Notes under the pieces: generated by a model | The model's database searches: none | What the model was told of the DNA's origin: nothing | Seen by the model: the letters and a program-made list of their open reading frames with translations, nothing else | Shown: positions 4,467 through 46,686 of the stretch, one piece after another | Numbering within the stretch: the first letter of the stretch is position 1 | Layout of the letters: each line of letters begins with the position of its first letter | Position numbers and translations under genes: made by a program | NCBI RefSeq assembly: GCF_019740355.2 | Contig: NZ_CP091819.1 | Coordinates: 3,658,001 to 3,722,000, forward strand | Length of the DNA: 64,000 nucleotides | Reading direction: 5' to 3' | Origin: Paracrocinitomix mangrovi | GTDB taxonomy: Bacteria > Bacteroidota > Bacteroidia > Flavobacteriales_D > Crocinitomicaceae

Positions 4467-5141
4467 GTGATCGATCTAATACTTGCAGATAGTAACGAAT
4501 TAATTCGCGTTGGCCTTAGAACAATCTTCAAGGACGAAGAGTTTAGAATCATAGGTGAAGCTGAAAGTACAGAAGAATTATTAGATCAAATCAAAACATT
4601 TAAACCTCAAGTTGTATTAATTGATTACACTTCAGATGGTTTTACAATTGACGCAGTTCCGGCAGTTAAAGCATTAGATCCACAAGTGCAAATAGTAGGA
4701 ATCACGCCACTTCAAACCGCTCAAACTTTGGTGCATGCAATTAAGTCAGGAGTAACATCTTACATTAAAAAGGATTGCAGTCTTGAGGAAATAAAAAATG
4801 CTGTAGTTGAAACGGCGAATAACAATACTTTTTTTTGCGGGACTATTTTGGAAACTATCAGAACTGAAGGAATCAATATTGAAAGTATTGAGGAAGTTGA
4901 TTTTAGTTGTGATCCGGTAATGTTATCAGATAGAGAAAGAGAGATTATTACATTAATTGCGGAAGGGCATACAAATGCAGCGATCTCTGAAAAACTTTTT
5001 TTAAGTAAGCATACGGTTAATACCCACCGCAAGAATATTATGGCCAAATTAGGTGTTAAAAATACCGCAGGAATTGTTATGTACGCGGTGAAAGAGAAAT
5101 ATACTTCTCCTAATAAGTACTTGTTTTCAGCTGATTCTTAA
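4467..5141 (+). CDS. NarL/FixJ-type response regulator with LuxR HTH
   Basis: This 224-residue protein starts at GTG 4467, which gives the usual receiver N-terminus MIDLILADSNELIRVGL. The receiver domain (about 1-120) has the acidic pocket at D8, the phospho-acceptor D53 (VVLIDYTS) and the conserved Lys in TSYIKKD. A LuxR-type DNA-binding helix-turn-helix follows at about 150-212 (LSDREREIITLIAEGHTNAA, HTVNTHRKNI). It is a DNA-binding response regulator. No cognate kinase is adjacent, so it is an orphan here. Its stop codon overlaps that of the convergent lipoprotein gene within the shared TTAA at 5138-5141. Confidence 0.88.
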   Translation: MIDLILADSNELIRVGLRTIFKDEEFRIIGEAESTEELLDQIKTFKPQVVLIDYTSDGFTIDAVPAVKALDPQVQIVGITPLQTAQTLVHAIKSGVTSYIKKDCSLEEIKNAVVETANNNTFFCGTILETIRTEGINIESIEEVDFSCDPVMLSDREREIITLIAEGHTNAAISEKLFLSKHTVNTHRKNIMAKLGVKNTAGIVMYAVKEKYTSPNKYLFSADS

Positions 5142-5566
5142 TATTGCTCTGCAAATTGCTCAACAACTGATTCATCCGGATTAATAGCAACAGCTAATAC
5201 CTTATATCCATCATCTGTTTTAGACATCACTAACCTTTCATGCATTGGTTGCTCTTGAATGTCTACTGTATAACTGAGCTTAACAGTGCTAATTCCATTG
5301 TGATACCCTCTATTAAATCCACCGGTAGAAACTCTGTTTTTATGTTCGCCCCAGCTGTGCATTAGAACTAAAACATTTCTAAAATTGCTTAATTCTGCCT
5401 CAGTAGCATATTCAGTGTCTACCAAATTGTCCATGATATATTCAATATCTCCATCATTTAATTTATTGTGAAATACTTCTGCAGCCTTTTCAGCTTCATC
5501 ATTGGAACATGATATAAATACAAAAGGAATGAATAATAGCAGCAATCCGAATTTTTTCATTTTCAA
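5138..5566 (-). CDS. hypothetical lipoprotein
   Basis: This 142-residue protein has a lipoprotein signal peptide (MKMKKFGLLLLFIPFVFISC, lipobox FISC with Cys20). After a charged spacer it has a compact alpha+beta domain (residues about 29-142) of the cystatin/NTF2-like kind often seen in DUF4019/DUF3887-type proteins. That resemblance is an impression only. It is predicted to be anchored in the inner or outer membrane. It is a single gene convergent with the LuxR regulator. Function is unknown. Confidence 0.6.
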   Translation of the reverse strand: MKMKKFGLLLLFIPFVFISCSNDEAEKAAEVFHNKLNDGDIEYIMDNLVDTEYATEAELSNFRNVLVLMHSWGEHKNRVSTGGFNRGYHNGISTVKLSYTVDIQEQPMHERLVMSKTDDGYKVLAVAINPDESVVEQFAEQY

Positions 5567-5627
5567 TTGGTTTTGTATAAATGTAAAAATTATTTTCTCT
5601 TCTCCCGGATTTCAATTATTTTTCAAA

Positions 5628-5654
5628 AATGAACCTTTTTAAACTAAAGGTGTA
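5628..5654 (+). promoter_or_regulatory. candidate ECF-sigma promoter/operator before the 5676-8431 operon
   Basis: TGAACC at 5630-5635 and TGTA at 5651-5654 are spaced like an ECF -35 (AAC-type) and -10 element, with 16 nt between GAAC and TGTA. The interval also carries arms ACCTTT and AAAGGT. The 27-bp block matches 25 of 27 positions with 22599-22625, upstream of the giant repeat gene. It lies 21 nt before the ATG at 5676, and the operon encodes an ECF sigma factor, so autoregulation is plausible. Promoter activity is inference. Confidence 0.55.
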
Positions 5655-5675
5655 ATCAATTACAAAGAGACATAA

Positions 5676-6686
5676 ATGAAGAGAGCATTAGCTGTCATAT
5701 TATTAATAGTGAGCACTTTTGGAATGGCCCAGGTTCAAGAAGGATCTAAGCTGGATATTCCGGGAACTGCGGATGAAGCGCTGAGCCAATTCATTTCTAA
5801 AAGAAACGGATTTAAGCGAAGCGGGACCAAGATGTTTAGCAAAACAGAGCAGGAGTCTTTAGAAGATTGGTGCTATGCAATGAATGATAAGTATCCGGAT
5901 ACATGGCAAACAAATTATGCCTGGTATTTGTGTGATGGACATTATTTAGCAAATGGTAAAAGAATTAAGGATGCTTATAACAAGGCAACTAGTGAAAGCC
6001 AGGTTGTAAAATCGCTTTTTGGATATTACAGCTTAACTGGAGATGCTGCAGGACAAAAACAACTGTTAAGTAAAGTAGCATCATATTACTCCAAAGATGT
6101 ATTGTCTTATTATGAAGACATGTTGCCATCATCAGGTAGTTTGATAGTGAGTTCAGAAGAAGAAGCAATTCCTCTTTATGTATTGCAATTAAAGGGAAAA
6201 GGTAGCGGTGTTACAATTGTCAATTTGGATTATTTGGTCAATGACAGTTACAGACAAAAAATGAATGCCAAATTGGGCTTGGGAAGTACAATTTTTAATC
6301 ACAATGAGGCTACTTATGTTGCGGCTGTAATGGGAAGTAAGTCAAGCTATGTTGCCACTACAGTTCCTCAGTCTTATTTGAATAATGTAAAGCCAACCTC
6401 TTATGTCACAGGATTGTGTTATCAGTTAAATATTGCAGATCAAAAAAGTGTTTTAAATGAGTTTTGGATGCAATTAGCAAATAGAGACTTTTCAGGTTTA
6501 AGTCTTAATAGTACAGAACGAAGACTTTACACCAATTACTTGCCTCCACTTTTAACGCTTTATAAACTTAAATTGAAGGGAGGAGAAAAAGATGAATTGC
6601 TACGCAAAGCTATTGTAGGGATTGCGGACAAAGTACAACAAACCAATACAGTAAAAAATATTTTAGAAACATATGAAAAAGGCTAG
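5676..6686 (+). CDS. secreted protein of unknown function, first gene of an ECF sigma operon
   Basis: This 336-residue protein has a signal peptide (1-19, ending GMAQ), so it is probably periplasmic or surface-exposed. No recognised domain was seen. The middle looks helical, with a few aromatic-rich segments (WQTNYAWYLCDGHYL at about 78-92) and two Cys residues. It is followed after 33 nt by the sigma factor gene and then the anti-sigma gene in the same direction, so it may be a sensor, a partner or simply a product of the same regulon. It starts 21 nt after the candidate ECF promoter at 5628-5654. Confidence 0.6.
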   Translation: MKRALAVILLIVSTFGMAQVQEGSKLDIPGTADEALSQFISKRNGFKRSGTKMFSKTEQESLEDWCYAMNDKYPDTWQTNYAWYLCDGHYLANGKRIKDAYNKATSESQVVKSLFGYYSLTGDAAGQKQLLSKVASYYSKDVLSYYEDMLPSSGSLIVSSEEEAIPLYVLQLKGKGSGVTIVNLDYLVNDSYRQKMNAKLGLGSTIFNHNEATYVAAVMGSKSSYVATTVPQSYLNNVKPTSYVTGLCYQLNIADQKSVLNEFWMQLANRDFSGLSLNSTERRLYTNYLPPLLTLYKLKLKGGEKDELLRKAIVGIADKVQQTNTVKNILETYEKG

Positions 6687-6719
6687 ATAGATTTTAACCA
6701 TAAAGTCGGGGTATTGGCC

Positions 6720-7331
6720 ATGCTTCGCAAACATTTACACGGAATGCGGCTTTTTAAGAAAGATTACTCAACATACACGGACGAAGACCTGATGCGCTCT
6801 TTTATTGAGGGTGACAAGGTAGCCTTTGAGCATATTTATGCTCGGTATGAGAGCTTTATGGTGAATTTTTTCTATCGAAAATTGTGGAGTGATAGAATTA
6901 AAGCAGAGGATTTTACGCATGATTTATTTACAAAGATTATTGACAAACCGGATGCATTTGACTTGAGTAGAAACTTTAAAACTTGGTTGTTTTCGGTAGC
7001 TAATAACATGTGTAAAAATGAATATAAGAAACAAGAAGTAAGAAAAAATACAGGATATGACGTCCCTGAAGGTGTACAGGCAAAAGATGAAACAATCTTA
7101 CCTGATATGGCGGTCGACAAATCCAATTTTGCCGCTCAGTTAAAAGTTGAATTAGATAAACTGAACGAAAAACACAGAGAGGTATTTATGATGCGGCATT
7201 TTGAAGGCCTCTCATTAAACGAAATAGCAGACGCGCTGGAGATCAATGCAGGCACGGTAAAGTCAAGGTTACATCATGCAACTAAGGCTTTAGCAGAGAA
7301 ATTAGCGGTTTTCAGAAAAACAATGATATGA
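6720..7331 (+). CDS. ECF-type RNA polymerase sigma-70 factor
   Basis: The protein has 203 residues from ATG 6720; a TTG at 6714 and an ATG at 6744 are alternative starts. Region 2 (about 20-95) has the expected YARYESFMVNFFYRK, DFTHDLFTKII and FKTWLFSVANNMCKNEYKK segments. Region 4 (about 130-195) has KLNEKHREVFMMRHFEGLS followed by the recognition helix NAGTVKSRLHHATKAL. It should direct RNA polymerase to a dedicated promoter set. Its stop overlaps the next start (ATGA at 7328-7331), implying translational coupling with its anti-sigma partner. A candidate target promoter is described at 5628-5654 and 22599-22625. Confidence 0.88.
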   Translation: MLRKHLHGMRLFKKDYSTYTDEDLMRSFIEGDKVAFEHIYARYESFMVNFFYRKLWSDRIKAEDFTHDLFTKIIDKPDAFDLSRNFKTWLFSVANNMCKNEYKKQEVRKNTGYDVPEGVQAKDETILPDMAVDKSNFAAQLKVELDKLNEKHREVFMMRHFEGLSLNEIADALEINAGTVKSRLHHATKALAEKLAVFRKTMI

Positions 7332-8431
7332 TTAAAGACGCAGAAAATATCATCCTGGCTAAAGAGTATTTCGAGTTGACAGCAGAAGAACTGGAACAAG
7401 TAAGTGAATTGGTTCAAAATGCTGAAGAATACGAGGAGATGAAGTGGTTTTTAATGAGCACGCAGCAAACACTTGCAAATGAAAAAATTCAGGCAAGTCC
7501 TGAGTTGAAGAAAAGTGTGATGGATCATCTCAATCAACAAAAAGACAACAGAAAATTCTGGTTGAATGGAGTAGTAGTGTTCATGTTTCCGGAGGACAAG
7601 AAGTTACATCAAAAACCTGCTTTTCAAATGGCGATTGCAGCCCTATTGATAGTTGGGTTTTTATTCATCTATAATCGTCCAATTGACGATCAACAAATGG
7701 CATTAAATGATACCATTGAACAACCAATTGCAGATGTACCGGTTGGTGATGCTGAGTTGAAAGATCTTGAAAAAGATGTGGATGATCTTTCAAAAGAAGG
7801 TGAAATCAGTGTGGGTGAAGAACAAGTAGTAAGTGGAGATTTAGCAACAGAAGAACCATTAATGGTAACGGATGAATTATTGGCACCAGAAAATGAAGAT
7901 GCCGGTGTTGACTATTTTTCACATCCTGATGGCGTTTATGGTCAGCCATTGGAAAGTACAGTTGATCAGCCAGTATTGCTAAGAGATGAAAGTAATGTTA
8001 CTAGTAATGCGCAAAATAGAGAAACCAATATGGGAGGATCAATTGAACTTGATAGCAAAGTGGAGACTAAAACTACTATTGTAGGAACTTCTGATAAAAC
8101 TGTTGCATCTTATGATGGTAATAAGAAAAAGGATCGCAATCAGTTGTATAAAGAACGCAAAAAAGTAGCTCAAAAAATGGAGATGGATGAATTGGCTGAA
8201 GAAGAAAGATTGGTTGATTTAGATGCAATGGAAGATGAAAAAGCTAATAATCCTTCAGGTAATGGGGTGACCACTGCAAATAACAATTCAGCTAATACTA
8301 TGAATTTTTCAGTGCAACCTTCAATGGCGGATGATGTTTCAGGAGGAGCAACAGCTTATGAAATAATGCCTACTTCTTTATCTATAAGTCAAAATAAAGA
8401 ATTGAATACTTTGTTCAGAACCTTTAAATAG
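7328..8431 (+). CDS. probable membrane-bound anti-sigma factor with long disordered periplasmic region
   Basis: This 367-residue protein has a cytoplasmic helical N-terminus (1-98, rich in E and L), one transmembrane helix (about 99-116, FQMAIAALLIVGFLFIY) and a roughly 250-residue acidic, low-complexity C-terminal part. That part contains a lysine/glutamate-rich stretch near residues 262-302. It is co-translated with the ECF sigma factor (4-nt overlap), the usual arrangement for an anti-sigma factor. It has no zinc-finger motif and, unlike the anti-sigma protein at 44133-45800, no recognisable outer-membrane barrel. Assignment rests on position and topology. Confidence 0.65.
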   Translation: MIKDAENIILAKEYFELTAEELEQVSELVQNAEEYEEMKWFLMSTQQTLANEKIQASPELKKSVMDHLNQQKDNRKFWLNGVVVFMFPEDKKLHQKPAFQMAIAALLIVGFLFIYNRPIDDQQMALNDTIEQPIADVPVGDAELKDLEKDVDDLSKEGEISVGEEQVVSGDLATEEPLMVTDELLAPENEDAGVDYFSHPDGVYGQPLESTVDQPVLLRDESNVTSNAQNRETNMGGSIELDSKVETKTTIVGTSDKTVASYDGNKKKDRNQLYKERKKVAQKMEMDELAEEERLVDLDAMEDEKANNPSGNGVTTANNNSANTMNFSVQPSMADDVSGGATAYEIMPTSLSISQNKELNTLFRTFK

Positions 8432-41763: not shown

Positions 41764-44136
41764 ATGAAACATACACTAGCCATTATATTAGTTGTGCTTT
41801 CGTCTATTTCATTCGGACAGCAACTGAGAGTAACAGGGATTTTAGCTGCAGATGATCTTTCTGCCAAACTGGGTCAAATAACAATACACTCATTACCGGA
41901 TTCATCACTAAGAAAAGGAACCTACATTGATAGTTCAAATTTTTCTTTATTAATGGACAGAAATGGTGGTACAGAATTTTATGCTAAACTAAAATTAGAC
42001 GGTTATTCTGATACCATTATCAACTTCTCAACATCTGATTCAATCCACAATCTGGGAATGATTGTAATGAGTAAAAATCTTGAACTGGAAACTTTTGAAT
42101 TTGTTTACAGACAGCCAACTTTTGAAAGAACCATGGATGGGATTAAAGTCAATGTTGAAGGAACAACTTTAGAAACCATGGATAACCTTTTTGAGATTCT
42201 AAAAGCATCCCCTAAGTTAAGTTCACCGGATGACGAGTCGATTGAAATAATTGGAAAAGGTGTTCCGCTTATTTTAGTGGATAGACAACCTATCCTAACC
42301 AATGACGAATTAAAAGCAATTCCGGCTGAGATGGTGGAGAAAATTGAAATCATTACCAATCCATCTGCAAAGTATAGAACACAGGGCAGAGGTAGTGGAG
42401 TAATTGAAGTCTATACCAAGAATTTTAGATTACAGGGATATAACATGAATGTCTCAGGTAATGGAGGTATCAATACACAGTTAAAGCCTACAGGTAGACT
42501 AGGAATTGGATTGAGCTTAAAAAAGAAGAAATTCAGCATGAATATGTATGCAAGTGGAAATTACAGATCAAGTAATTCTTTTGGAAGTACCACTACCGAA
42601 ATTTTTGACACAACAAACAGAACAACAACTTCCAATTACACAGATGAAAATCAAAGTATCTGGCAGCACTTTAGCATCAAATCGGCTTATCAGATAAATG
42701 ATAAACAAAAAATTACTGCAGGAGTAAATGGCGGAGGAAGTATATATAAGTCTATTTCAGAATCTAATAAAATGTATTTTGAAGGTGATGAGTTACAAAC
42801 TACAAATGACAAGTTAGGTTCAGATGGATTTACATGGTTAAACAGTAGTGCCTTTTTAAACTATACTGTTGAAACAGATACATTCAATAGTAATTTTGAA
42901 GTTAACCTGAATTACCAGTATAAAATAAGAGAAGGTAAAGCAACTTTTTACAATGATTTTATAGATACAACTGGTGCTGTTTTTAAAAATGATATTCAAA
43001 ATCAAAACAGAAACCGTCCAAATGTTACCGAAGTAAGAGTAACATATGAACACGTTTTTGATACAAGTGGATGGAAATTAAGTGGAGGTGGTGCCTACAG
43101 TATTATCTTAAACGGGATGCGTTTTGATCAATCTAATTTAATTGATGATCAATGGGTAAATGATCCGGTTTATTCTAATTCGTATGACTACATAGAGCAG
43201 AACGGATCTGCATTTTTAGAGACTACTAAAAATTGGGATAAAGTTAGCTTGCGTGCAGGTGTAACTGCTGAGTATACAGATTTGAATGGTTTCAGTAATT
43301 CACTTAATAAACAGTTTATTGATTCTAATTATGTGATGCTTTTTCCTTCTGGAAGTATCATGATTAATCCAAAGGACAATTTTAGCATGACGCTTAGATA
43401 TAGTTCAGGAATTGATAGACCTTCTTTTTCAAATTATGATCCATTTGTGCGCATTCAGGATAGCTTAAATATATCATACGGAAATCCATATTTAAGACCA
43501 TCAGTTTATCACTCTACAGGAGTAAGTTTTGACTTTTTTAATGCCTACAGTTTAAGTGTGGATTATTCTTATAATCACAGGCCAACATCTCAATTGACTT
43601 TTATTGATTCGAATTTTGTCAGTAACTCAACACCATGGAATTCAGATAATGATCAGTCTTTGAATGTTTATATATCTGCTCCCGTAAAAACTAAATGGAT
43701 GTCAGGATGGAATTCATTGTGGATGACATATACAATGACACAATTTACTCCTGAATTTCAAAGAGCTGATATTTCTTATTTAACATTTGGTTTATGGTCT
43801 AACCTAAATTTTTACTTACCAGGTGATTTTACATTAACTAATAGATTACATGCAAGTAGATGGGGATCAGAGAACTTTTTGGGTAATTTCAGAGCAAGTT
43901 GGAGTATGCGTCTTACTAAGAAGTTACTGGACAACAACCTTAGAATTTTCGTAGAAGTGCAGGATATCGTTCCGCCTAAAAACAAGAATTATAATTACGC
44001 AAATAATTATACCAGCTACACTGAAGCGCAATATGCTTTTACTTCATTTAGATTGGGAATCTATTACAAATTTGGTAGGTTGAGAAGTGAAGCTCAAATT
44101 CAGGAATCTAAATCAAACCAGTCAGGAAGGATTTAG
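41764..44136 (+). CDS. outer-membrane beta-barrel family protein, TonB-receptor-like
   Basis: This is 790 residues from ATG 41764; the in-frame GTG at 41746 would add residues before the signal peptide. It has a signal peptide (ends SFGQ), a short beta domain, a plug-like region (about 115-220; SIEIIGKGVPLILVDRQPI and MVEKIEIITNPSAKYRTQG) and a long barrel of the PF14905 type. It lacks a classical TonB box that can be seen by eye. It converges on the anti-sigma barrel gene with stop codons overlapping in 4 nt, which hints that the two may be functionally related. Confidence 0.82.
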   Translation: MKHTLAIILVVLSSISFGQQLRVTGILAADDLSAKLGQITIHSLPDSSLRKGTYIDSSNFSLLMDRNGGTEFYAKLKLDGYSDTIINFSTSDSIHNLGMIVMSKNLELETFEFVYRQPTFERTMDGIKVNVEGTTLETMDNLFEILKASPKLSSPDDESIEIIGKGVPLILVDRQPILTNDELKAIPAEMVEKIEIITNPSAKYRTQGRGSGVIEVYTKNFRLQGYNMNVSGNGGINTQLKPTGRLGIGLSLKKKKFSMNMYASGNYRSSNSFGSTTTEIFDTTNRTTTSNYTDENQSIWQHFSIKSAYQINDKQKITAGVNGGGSIYKSISESNKMYFEGDELQTTNDKLGSDGFTWLNSSAFLNYTVETDTFNSNFEVNLNYQYKIREGKATFYNDFIDTTGAVFKNDIQNQNRNRPNVTEVRVTYEHVFDTSGWKLSGGGAYSIILNGMRFDQSNLIDDQWVNDPVYSNSYDYIEQNGSAFLETTKNWDKVSLRAGVTAEYTDLNGFSNSLNKQFIDSNYVMLFPSGSIMINPKDNFSMTLRYSSGIDRPSFSNYDPFVRIQDSLNISYGNPYLRPSVYHSTGVSFDFFNAYSLSVDYSYNHRPTSQLTFIDSNFVSNSTPWNSDNDQSLNVYISAPVKTKWMSGWNSLWMTYTMTQFTPEFQRADISYLTFGLWSNLNFYLPGDFTLTNRLHASRWGSENFLGNFRASWSMRLTKKLLDNNLRIFVEVQDIVPPKNKNYNYANNYTSYTEAQYAFTSFRLGIYYKFGRLRSEAQIQESKSNQSGRI

Positions 44137-45800
44137 AAGTAATACCCCACTCCAAATACCGTTTGAAAAGTATTGTATTTGACGCTAAATGTTCCGTCTG
44201 TAGCAACATTTGTAAATCTCATTCTATATCCTGGTCTAACATATACATGGAAGTTTCCTAAGTTCCTTTGTATTTGCGTTTCAATTGCGAATGAAAAACC
44301 AAATTTGGTACTAGTAAGGTTATATGGAACATTGGTTCCGTTACTAAATACCGGATAAGTAGAAGAAGAGGTAGCTCTAATGATTTCTAAAATTCCGCTT
44401 ACTTGAGGACGAATAGCCCAGTTTTTAAACTTAATTGTATATCCTAATGTCAGTGGTATCATGATCATTTTGTATTCGTTTATCACTGAATTGTTAGATG
44501 TTGTGGTATCAATTCCGGAAACTTGTACACTGTCAGGATAAGTATAGGTAATTGTGTCTATTGGGTTTTGAAGTGTGTCATAAATAATAGAATCAACTGA
44601 TACAGTGAAAGTTGAATCGTAAGTGTAAGGTGTGTAAACTTCTGTGGTATAATCAATTTGATCTTTGTACTTGTTCATGCTTACTCCCAATCCCGTATAG
44701 AAGTTCTTAATGTTAAAGTTGATTCCTGCACCGTAGTGTCCTGTTGTTTGGAGTTTTTTATTGGAATTAAAGGTGTTGCTTTCAGTTGTTGTGTTTGCTA
44801 ATAACTTAGAGTTTCCAAAATCAATTCCTGCATAAAGGTGTGGCTCAATGCTAAAGATTTTTGGTTTTGGATCATTATTGATTTCATTGTTTGCCGTGCT
44901 ATCCGAATCTGTGTTTTCAGTAAGTGTTGAATCTACAGCATCATTTTCAACCAAATTACTGTCTATTTCCGTATTGTTCAATGAATCAATATTGCTATCA
45001 GTATTAATTGTGTCACTGCTGTCTATGTTAGTCGAATTGTTATTGGCTAAGTTATTGTCTGGCTGTTTTTCATCTTCTTGATTTGAATCAGAATCTGAAT
45101 CTGAACTATTGGTTCCTGATTCAGTTTTTCGTTCACTATTTTCAGTAGTTAAATCTTCGCCATCTTTTTCATCTTTTTGTTGATTCTGTTCAATTTTTAG
45201 ATTTGAATCAATGGATGATTTATCATCAACCTTATTAGATTTTTGGGAATTTACATTACCATTTAAAATTGAACTTTTGTCAACTTCAGTTTTGTCTACA
45301 GTTAATTTGTCGTTTTGAATGGTGCTGTTTTTTACTGTTTTGGTTGAGTTGAATTGATTTTTATTGGTAGTGTTTTCGGATTTTAAATTTGAATTTACTT
45401 CATTTTTATCCGTTGAATAATCATTGTTGTTTACTTGGTTTTTAAGATTTTCATTTTCGGTATTTGAATTCAAATCAGTCTGATTATCTGAGTTTAGGGG
45501 GGAGATGTCAGCTAATTCATTGTTGTTTGCATTATTAGTGGAATGATGAGGGTCAGCTAGTTCAGAGTGATTTTCGTTTTTAGATGAGGAGTCAAATCCG
45601 TTCATAAAAAACGCAGTTGCTGTAATTCCAAAAAGCACAAAGATGAGGATGAAGAAATACAATTTCTTGTTGTTTCCTCCCTTTCTTTTGGCAAGACGAT
45701 TCTGCAAATCCTCGGTGTAACTATCCGGAATTTCAAAATGACGATCTTCGCCTAGCTTTTGCTTGAAAAGTTGGTCAATATTATCAGTTTGCTCTTTCAC
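44133..45800 (-). CDS. dual membrane-spanning anti-sigma-like protein with outer-membrane barrel
   Basis: In this 555-residue protein residues 1-46 are polar and likely cytoplasmic (RLAKRKGGNNKK just before the membrane) and 47-66 form one membrane helix (LYFFILIFVLFGITATAFFM). Residues 67-314 are an Asn/Ser/Asp/Thr-rich disordered linker. Residues 315-555 form a beta-barrel of the PorT/outer-membrane type (EPHLYAGIDFG, YRMRFTNVATDG) ending VFGVGYYF. The 5' end overlaps the ECF sigma gene by 17 nt. This matches the recently described dual membrane-spanning anti-sigma factors of Bacteroides, as I recall them, which control vesiculation. The barrel would sense the outer membrane while the N-terminus binds sigma. 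Confidence 0.75.
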   Translation of the reverse strand: MKEQTDNIDQLFKQKLGEDRHFEIPDSYTEDLQNRLAKRKGGNNKKLYFFILIFVLFGITATAFFMNGFDSSSKNENHSELADPHHSTNNANNNELADISPLNSDNQTDLNSNTENENLKNQVNNNDYSTDKNEVNSNLKSENTTNKNQFNSTKTVKNSTIQNDKLTVDKTEVDKSSILNGNVNSQKSNKVDDKSSIDSNLKIEQNQQKDEKDGEDLTTENSERKTESGTNSSDSDSDSNQEDEKQPDNNLANNNSTNIDSSDTINTDSNIDSLNNTEIDSNLVENDAVDSTLTENTDSDSTANNEINNDPKPKIFSIEPHLYAGIDFGNSKLLANTTTESNTFNSNKKLQTTGHYGAGINFNIKNFYTGLGVSMNKYKDQIDYTTEVYTPYTYDSTFTVSVDSIIYDTLQNPIDTITYTYPDSVQVSGIDTTTSNNSVINEYKMIMIPLTLGYTIKFKNWAIRPQVSGILEIIRATSSSTYPVFSNGTNVPYNLTSTKFGFSFAIETQIQRNLGNFHVYVRPGYRMRFTNVATDGTFSVKYNTFQTVFGVGYYF

Positions 45801-46347
45801 TTGCTTCGGTTTCGTTTAATTCGCTTGTTTTAAAAACTGCACGTAGTTTTTTTCTAGCTTCTTTTAAGTGCCATTTAAATGTTTCATATTTTATATCTAG
45901 TTGTTCACATACTTCTTGACTTGTATATCCGTCAATTACGTATAGGTTAAATACCATTTTTCCCGCCGGAGGAAGCATGTTTAAATAATACTCTAATTGT
46001 TCACTTGCAATCTCTTCTTCTACTTCCGGCATTTGAATTGAACCATAAAGATCTTCTTGATAAGAAATGGTTTCATTCAGCTTTTTATTTCTTCTGAAAT
46101 CGTCGATAATTTCGTTTCTCATTATTTGACGAATCCAGGCTTTGTAATTGGTGTTTAAATCGTACTGATCTATTTTATCAATGATCTTGATAAAAGTGTT
46201 GTTAAGCAGTGTTCTCCTGTCTTCATCATTGATTTTATATCTGGCTACCTGACTCATAAGTACATCAAAAGAGTATCGGTACAGTTCGTTAATTACACGA
46301 CTGTCGTTCTTTTTAATCTTTTTTATATCCTTTTGGGTCAGCTGCAA
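45784..46347 (-). CDS. ECF-type RNA polymerase sigma-70 factor
   Basis: This 187-residue protein starts at TTG 46347, the best candidate because no in-frame ATG precedes region 2. Region 2 (about 15-90) has INELYRYSFDVLMSQVARYK and YKAWIRQIMRNEIIDDFRRN. Region 4 (about 120-180) has YLNMLPPAGKMVFNLYVIDG and TSQEVCEQLDIKYETFKWHL. It should form a sigma/anti-sigma pair with the downstream 17-nt-overlapping gene. No clear own promoter was recognised in the 339-nt region upstream. Confidence 0.85.
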   Translation of the reverse strand: MQLTQKDIKKIKKNDSRVINELYRYSFDVLMSQVARYKINDEDRRTLLNNTFIKIIDKIDQYDLNTNYKAWIRQIMRNEIIDDFRRNKKLNETISYQEDLYGSIQMPEVEEEIASEQLEYYLNMLPPAGKMVFNLYVIDGYTSQEVCEQLDIKYETFKWHLKEARKKLRAVFKTSELNETEASERAN

Positions 46348-46686
46348 ACAGGGAATACTTTTATGTACAGTTAATAAGTACTACATTAACAATTTTAGAA
46401 TTGATTTATTTCTTTGAATATCAATTGTATAAATATACACCTGATTATCTGAAAGAATCAAATCTAATTCATTATAATAATTTCCTCCTGTTAGTTAAAA
46501 CGAAAACGGAATCTGAAAAGGGGGGGTCAGATAATTTTTTTTCTAAAATTAATGATTTGACTTACCAAAACCATTGCTAAAACAGCCATTGCTGCCACAA
46601 TAGTTTTAAGATTTTGGTCTATGAATGTAGGAATATCCTCTCCAATCGAGGTAATTGATAAACAGTGTTTTAAATAAAAGAAAAAA
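46348..46686. other. intergenic region (339 nt) with a possible small membrane ORF
   Basis: This is the only gene-free stretch above 300 nt. It contains a run of seven G (46521-46527). On the minus strand an open frame ends with TGA at 46527-46529 and encodes a membrane-helix-like stretch (IVAAMAVLAMVLVSQIINF). It lacks an ATG near its apparent beginning, so it is either started at a rare codon or a remnant of a gene. The rest is AT-rich with no clear sites. Confidence 0.3.

Follow-up and report, generated by a model that had tools for sequence, protein, structure and literature searches.

A Dma-type sigma/anti-sigma pair in Paracrocinitomix mangrovi and the surface proteins it is predicted to control

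What would a transcriptional switch that appears to span both membranes control? We consider this question for a pair of genes in a 64,000-nucleotide (nt) stretch of the Paracrocinitomix mangrovi genome (contig NZ_CP091819.1, positions 3,658,001 to 3,722,000), hereafter the window. On its minus strand, the gene for an extracytoplasmic function (ECF) sigma factor (45784-46347; 187 residues, TTG start, region 4.2 helix YETFKWH) runs into that for a 555-residue anti-sigma protein of the Dma type (44133-45800; GTG start). Our answer, to which we give a probability of about 0.7, is that the pair is a Dma-type sigma/anti-sigma switch whose freed sigma factor would read promoters with a run of C, and would so renew or change a few surface proteins when the surface is perturbed. 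We drew the pairing, layout, promoter, and target set from sequence comparison, and we infer the signal, how the sigma factor is bound, and how it is released.

What does the pair look like?

The overlap reported by the original prediction is real: the 3' end of the sigma gene and the 5' end of the anti-sigma gene share 17 nt (45784-45800, both on the minus strand). The sigma factor scores above the Pfam cut-offs for Sigma70_r4_2, Sigma70_r2, and Sigma70_ECF. A search for orthologues of the same layout, suggested at the outset, found complete partner genes in five relatives (L053, L054, L055, L057, and L059; L numbers denote loci and G numbers genomes), each with a sigma gene immediately upstream, and the layout is therefore not a matter of chance. 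The sigma open reading frame (ORF) at L055 (7863-8495, plus strand, genome G028) is chimeric, with a foreign, secreted PKD-like N-terminus in place of region 2; it is either a chimera or the product of a rearrangement. The nearest named loci belong to an uncultured Flavobacteriales bacterium, a Crocinitomicaceae bacterium, and Brumimicrobium, which fits the placement in Flavobacteriales that had been proposed.

The anti-sigma protein can be divided into four segments, all encoded on the minus strand. Residues 1-46 (45663-45800) make up a putative sigma-binding segment in the cytoplasm, with two helices (7-16 and 26-38) and a score of 37 bits for the shared N-terminal motif described below. They are followed by a single inner-membrane helix at residues 47-66 (45603-45662), placed at 47-65 by hydropathy and at 46-68 by AlphaFold2. 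Residues 67-314 (44859-45602) form a tether rich in N, S, and D, taken as disordered from its composition and from a predicted local distance difference test (pLDDT) below 50 over residues 67-311. Finally, residues 315-555 (44136-44858) are predicted by AlphaFold2 and Foldseek to fold as an eight-stranded outer-membrane beta-barrel.

The length and composition of the linker had been singled out, and rightly so on both counts. Its 248 residues include 21% N, 15% S, and 13% D (sum 48%), against 6%, 6%, and 7% (sum 19%) in the other window ORFs of at least 300 residues, and by a crude measure it is the longest of 74 such tethers (250, against a median of 145.5). The structure prediction proposed for the barrel also gave the expected outcome. 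The AlphaFold2 model, built on an alignment of 6 sequences, has eight long strands between residues 316 and 554, with pLDDT (in blocks of ten) of up to 95 and several blocks at 90 or above. A Foldseek search of this model against the PDB returned 45 matches at an E-value of 0.001 or better, by their descriptions nearly all outer-membrane barrels, including OpcA, NspA (target TM-score 0.60), and OmpX (0.52). C-terminal regions related to the window barrel occur at L053, L055, L063, L054, L062, and L059. The Dma-type architecture and its pairing with a sigma factor are thus backed by structure prediction and by conservation in relatives.

How close is this to the known Dma pairs? In the accessible part of their description (PMC13088901), Dma1/Das1 and Dma2/Das2 of Bacteroides thetaiotaomicron have an N-terminal sigma-binding segment, one transmembrane helix, a long disordered tether, a C-terminal barrel, and an adjoining ECF sigma gene. 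The window protein has the single transmembrane helix and the long disordered tether, has the C-terminal outer-membrane barrel by prediction, and so presents the Dma layout as far as modelling goes; in place of an established sigma-binding segment it offers the shared 46-position motif and two helices, for which binding is putative. Dma proteins are further defined by an adjacent cognate sigma factor of class ECF21 and by a rise in vesiculation, through that sigma factor, when they are lost; the adjacent sigma factor here is classed by the general ECF models of Pfam. They are also restricted to Bacteroidota, and the annotated loci in our tree of the window family, taken from the best 80 of 571 scan hits, are all from that phylum.

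Which promoter might the sigma factor read?

Some 150 nt upstream of the sigma start lies a predicted sigma-dependent promoter, CCCCCCC (46526-46520), 17 nt, and CGTT (46502-46499), spanning 46499-46526 on the minus strand. The combination CCCCCCC-N17-CGTT was first spotted in front of three sigma genes, those of the window, L062, and L054. Searched as a C-run pattern with a spacing of 16-18, it has one match in the window (46526-46499) and none in 100 shuffles. The whole genome holds four distinct exact sites, each with a spacing of 17, and the reversed control none.

Exact sites with a spacing of 17 were then counted in this genome together with 58 relatives. They occur in 14 of the 59 genomes, 20 in total and 16 outside P. 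mangrovi, and the reversed control has 9. Six of the 16 are intergenic, and these stand before a sigma gene (G029), a lipoprotein gene of the same family as the P. mangrovi target given below (G029, G033, and G034), a homologue with SprB repeats (G029), and a PKD-containing protein of the type IX secretion kind (G037).

A sigma search of the same 59 genomes gave E-values below 1e-40 in five: P. mangrovi itself, G034, G037, G029, and G048 (2.6e-41). All four relatives in this set have a correctly placed site, exact in G029, G034, and G037 and in a near form in G048. The last lacks the exact form and has CCCCCC-N17-CGTC about 47 nt before a 475-residue gene that directly precedes the sigma gene; its product, judged by eye, resembles a PKD type IX protein. 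At L226 (5438-7424, plus strand), in this same genome, the partner of the sigma factor is split over three ORFs, so that its anti-sigma gene looks broken unless the assembly is in error. G028 has a site of spacing 18 and the truncated window-type sigma ORF, and in G033 the lipoprotein site is accompanied by an anti-sigma fragment at a contig end, with the window-type sigma gene not recovered.

We also compared sites and sigma factors in 13 genomes picked by hand, allowing a spacing of 17-18; these include G059, G060, and G061, the genomes of L061, L062, and L063. L063 comes from Brumimicrobium mesophilum JCM 14063, which has the pair as well as a C-run site. Sites were found in all eight with a window-type sigma factor (P. 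mangrovi, G028, G029, G034, G037, G059, G060, and G061), and all 13 distinct sites are correctly placed, that is, before the sigma gene or operon, the lipoprotein gene, or a type IX protein gene. None was found in any of the five without it (G001, G002, G003, G025, and G031). Our literature search, with many subscription papers beyond its reach, found no published account of the C-run promoter or of its regulon.

Which genes lie behind the promoter?

Beyond the sigma operon, the exact sites in P. mangrovi precede three genes: one for a 1042-residue protein with six stretches of SprB repeats, DUF7619, and a type IX tail (L147, 2474-5602), one for a 333-residue lipoprotein (L148, 2508-3509), and one for a 776-residue protein with eight PKD stretches and a type IX tail (L149, 5289-7619, minus strand). 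From this comparison we predict a regulon of four promoters, comprising the sigma operon itself (autoregulation), the SprB-repeat protein, the PKD-repeat protein, and the lipoprotein. A homologue of SprA is present, which makes type IX secretion plausible in this genome.

Gene order gives these targets independent support, because it places lipoprotein or type IX genes behind the site and ahead of the sigma gene: the gene in this position encodes the lipoprotein at L063 and in G034, and a type IX protein at L061 and in G037 and G048. The lipoprotein is kept in four relatives at 32-56% identity to that of P. mangrovi, and the SprB-repeat protein at 56% over 1046 columns. Neither Pfam nor NCBIfam gives a NigD match for the lipoprotein, and a NigD regulon was accordingly rejected as far as exact-site targets go. 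In L149, read as the reverse complement, two short ORFs (4801-4980 and 6600-6770) have a repeated stretch in common, which may be a small repeat element.

Was the -35 element recoded?

A motif search was made in 78 upstream regions of sigma genes from the scan loci L061-L140. The commonest two-part motif found in these 78 was CCAAC-N17-CGTT. In the form CCAAC-N17-CGT it occurs in 34 of them (300 nt each), where 200 letter shuffles average 0.14 and the antisense strand has none; CAAC-N17-CGT occurs in 45, against 0.77 in shuffles and 1 antisense. Other spacings that were tried (8-15 and 19-26) gave at most 4. In the window clade, the spacing and the CGT are kept and the -35 element is a run of C.

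The sigma factors change in step. In a tree of 93, one branch with support of 100/100 unites the seven full-length sigma factors of the clade. A smaller tree of 32, made without region 4, has a branch of nine (98/92) composed of these seven, G048, and G024. In region 4.2 these nine read ETVKW (six members), ETFKW (window), or ETSKW (G048 and G024), and G028 reads ESVKW. The Glu of the recognition helix is present in all 10 clade members, and the corresponding residue is Gly, Asn, or Ser in all 86 others. The change to V or F is confined to the eight with exact sites.

Region 4.2 of ECF sigma factors reads the -35 element. The Glu shared by the clade in this region therefore ties the C-run promoter to the window-type sigma factor, G024 being the exception. 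A joint shift of -35 element and recognition helix of this kind is a natural case of promoter recoding within an ECF sigma family.

How might the switch work, and what weighs against it?

A helical hairpin at the N-terminus of the anti-sigma protein would bind the ECF sigma factor and keep it in the cytoplasm. This hairpin would be linked, by way of the inner-membrane helix and the tether of 248 residues, to the eight-stranded barrel, presumably placed in the outer membrane by the machinery that inserts barrels in general. The tether may then transmit a change at the cell surface or in the outer membrane, either as tension or through regulated proteolysis, and the sigma factor would be freed. 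Once free, it would transcribe from CCCCCCC-N17-CGTT promoters, its own operon included, a step for which the support is comparative. The outcome would be that a small set of surface proteins is renewed or changed upon perturbation of the outer surface.

Several observations count against this reading. On the promoter side, up to one mismatch gives 5 places in P. mangrovi and 8 in the reversed control, and the single place with one mismatch has an altered -10 element; since near misses should by chance far outnumber exact sites, only the exact sites stand out. Ten exact sites in nine relatives fall inside ORFs, one of them (L154) within an ORF of only 111 residues, and look like chance; given these 10 and the 9 sites of the reversed control, a lone site proves nothing. 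The site of the window sigma gene is also far (about 150 nt) from its TTG start, whereas the three other sites in the genome lie 30, 36, and 81 nt before ATG codons. G024 sits on a long branch within the clade, and its sigma gene has a partner of the expected type; the region upstream of that sigma gene shows no C-run site and no CAAC site, and the genome has no exact C-run site. Nor is the V/F change clade-wide, since G048 and G024 keep ETSKW. As for the barrel, the overall confidence of the AlphaFold2 model is low (pLDDT 52.6, predicted TM-score (pTM) 0.39), the best target-normalised TM-score among the 50 Foldseek matches listed is only 0.60, and the 555-residue protein, barrel included, has no Pfam match at an E-value of 1.

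What might the pair respond to?

The main rival is a general response to outer-membrane stress of the kind proposed for EcfO-Reo of Phocaeicola vulgatus, in which the barrel would report that the membrane is damaged or that barrels fail to assemble; we regard this as possible, if unlikely. In the accessible portions of the reports on EcfO-Reo (PMC9308784, PMC13114119), which cover Bacteroides fragilis and P. vulgatus, the sigma gene likewise lies upstream of a large periplasm-spanning anti-sigma protein with a predicted outer-membrane barrel, and the system is strongly raised by the BcpT toxin and bacteroidetocin A. Its output there includes NigD proteins and a longer O-antigen, neither of which was found among the exact-site targets of the window pair. 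Those targets in P. mangrovi are few and include no chaperone, protease, or barrel-assembly gene, although weaker targets may have been missed. We favor a surface-renewal or adhesion switch because the predicted output consists of surface proteins, with general envelope stress as the chief competing signal.

Less probable is that the pair controls the production of outer-membrane vesicles, with the surface proteins as side targets. Dma1 and Dma2 of B. thetaiotaomicron are described, in the part of the account open to us (PMC13088901), as acting on vesiculation, with nigD1 for Dma1 and glycan loci for Dma2; the layout is the same as that of Dma2, and an SprB-like protein or a lipoprotein could well alter the envelope. 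However, the predicted targets are surface proteins, and the lipoprotein does not match NigD, though NigD1 is the route reported for Dma1. Unlike the Bacteroides pairs, to which we liken ours by descriptions of layout, the window pair would act on type IX surface proteins and on a lipoprotein outside NigD. As predicted from its sites, the output lends no support to control of vesiculation and suggests that a few surface proteins, and not chiefly the release of vesicles, are what the switch controls.

Could the C-terminal region instead be a beta-rich periplasmic domain, and the protein an ordinary one-helix anti-sigma factor? The lack of a Pfam match in the window barrel, and the family matches in only some members (OMP_b-brl_2 in 28 of 73, OMP_b-brl in 13), would allow it, but the eight mostly confident strands and a fold search led by outer-membrane barrels make it very improbable.

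Least credible of all is cell-surface signaling of the FecI/FecR/TonB-receptor type with the convergent gene (41764-44136) as receptor: that gene does encode a barrel of the OMP_b-brl_3 family, whose matches to the TonB-receptor and plug models stay under the respective cut-offs, but the anti-sigma protein has no FecR match in Pfam at an E-value of 1 (on which ground we rejected this type of signaling) and carries a barrel of its own, the sigma factor scores 64.6 against Sig70_bacteroi1, far under the cut-off of 126.4, and the convergent gene lacks an exact promoter site and did not turn up next to the pair in any of the relatives that were inspected. For these last two reasons, the functional link to this gene that the original prediction had floated is unsupported, and we dropped it.

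A third known system deserves mention for its promoter. The SM6 ECF promoters of Flavobacterium psychrophilum, in the accessible part of their description (PMC9723704), have CGT in the -10 element, an ECF sigma/anti-sigma pair as a target, and a link to type IX secretion. The likeness to the window promoter was judged on the -10 element, and SM6 drives genes of the type IX machinery, unlike the window-type sigma factor, whose predicted output is type IX cargo.

The published work on Dma-type systems that we found concerns, in the parts available, gut Bacteroides and Phocaeicola, and deals with vesicles, glycan use, and stress. What we would add to the known layout is a clade-specific promoter and regulon, both predicted. 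A promoter and a short, conserved target list in relatives beyond these genera lead to a testable hypothesis, namely that trans-envelope switches of this kind govern surface proteins exported through type IX secretion.

How widespread is the layout?

A search for the anti-sigma protein in the 59 genomes at an E-value of 0.001 matched 8, P. mangrovi included. This search is not sensitive: it failed to pick up the pairs of G034 and G037, as well as G048 with its sigma gene and split partner. A scan with the sigma alignment, using one genome per species, was examined for the best 80 of 571 confirmed hits. All 80 sigma loci have a partner ORF on the same strand, starting between -120 and +300 nt from the sigma stop, and 72 of these ORFs are closed and at least 350 residues long. 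A helix begins within the first 190 residues in 64 of the 72 at a strict hydropathy cut-off and in all 72 when the cut-off is relaxed. In the stretch of 120 residues that follows the helix, N, S, T, D, E, K, Q, G, and P account for a median of 68% (71 proteins, range 48-78%), compared with 54% in other window ORFs.

With the window protein, these make a set of 73, in which Pfam finds OMP_b-brl_2 in 28 and OMP_b-brl in 13, two sets that may overlap; a family match thus shows the barrel end in only part of the members. The N-terminal motif of 46 positions, built from 63 proteins, scores above 0 bits in all 92 proteins searched and at least 15 bits in 86, partly by construction. No locus among the best 80 was titled Bacteroides. 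The Dma- or Reo-like layout is common and ordinary in Bacteroidota.

Some members depart from it. In eight of the 92 proteins, the N-terminal motif is repeated before the transmembrane helix, with two to four copies that each reach at least 10 bits (L065, L071, L083, L085, L095, and, in P. mangrovi, L033, L034, and L035). Repeats of a putative sigma-binding motif could mean that several sigma molecules are held, or could serve avidity. An AlphaFold2 model of L095, with its tandem motif, shows short helices, the transmembrane helix, and C-terminal strands, at a low overall pTM of 0.37. At L058 in G031 (5274-6020, plus strand), a single ORF of 248 residues has a sigma-like start and a barrel-like end and lacks the linker; it is a deletion remnant or an assembly error.

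Is the scaffold modular?

P. mangrovi has partner ORFs at 20 of 23 sigma loci. The N-terminal motif is clear in seven of these partners, the window protein and six others, and weak (6 bits) in one more, L041/L019. Four of the six paralogues (L033, L034, L037, and L038) end in what looks like a barrel. L034, L037, and L038 exceed the OMP_b-brl_2 cut-off of 27 bits when the genome is searched; scored as whole proteins, L037 passes (31.3), L038 reaches 25.3, L033 reaches 17.8, and L034 has no match at 0.01. The other two, L035 (3088-4497, minus strand) and L036 (3413-4519, minus strand), join the N-terminal motif and linker to PKD and a CHU_C type IX sorting domain and have no barrel. A CHU_C-like motif is also present in relatives (L184, L187, L188, L194, and L195), and our literature search, at the level of listings, found no publication on anti-sigma proteins with a type IX tail.

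The ends of the paralogues and the repeated motifs suggest a modular scaffold. A bolder proposal, which we put forward only tentatively, is that hairpin, transmembrane helix, and tether form a modular trans-envelope reporter that carries at its distal end either a barrel (the window protein and probably four paralogues) or PKD with a type IX sorting domain (L035 and L036). With it, the cell would read delivery to the surface and couple this to transcription of type IX cargo, and the window clade, in which CCAAC at -35 would have given way to a run of C as the recognition helix changed, would thereby have a private regulon.

Two further pairs were noted in passing. The window contains another ECF sigma gene (6714-7331, plus strand) with a 367-residue partner (7328-8431, plus strand) that has one transmembrane helix and in which the N-terminal motif was not found. 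Elsewhere in the genome, the ECF sigma partner at L041 (5345-7327, plus strand) has one transmembrane helix and a C-terminal region of the von Willebrand/YfbK type.

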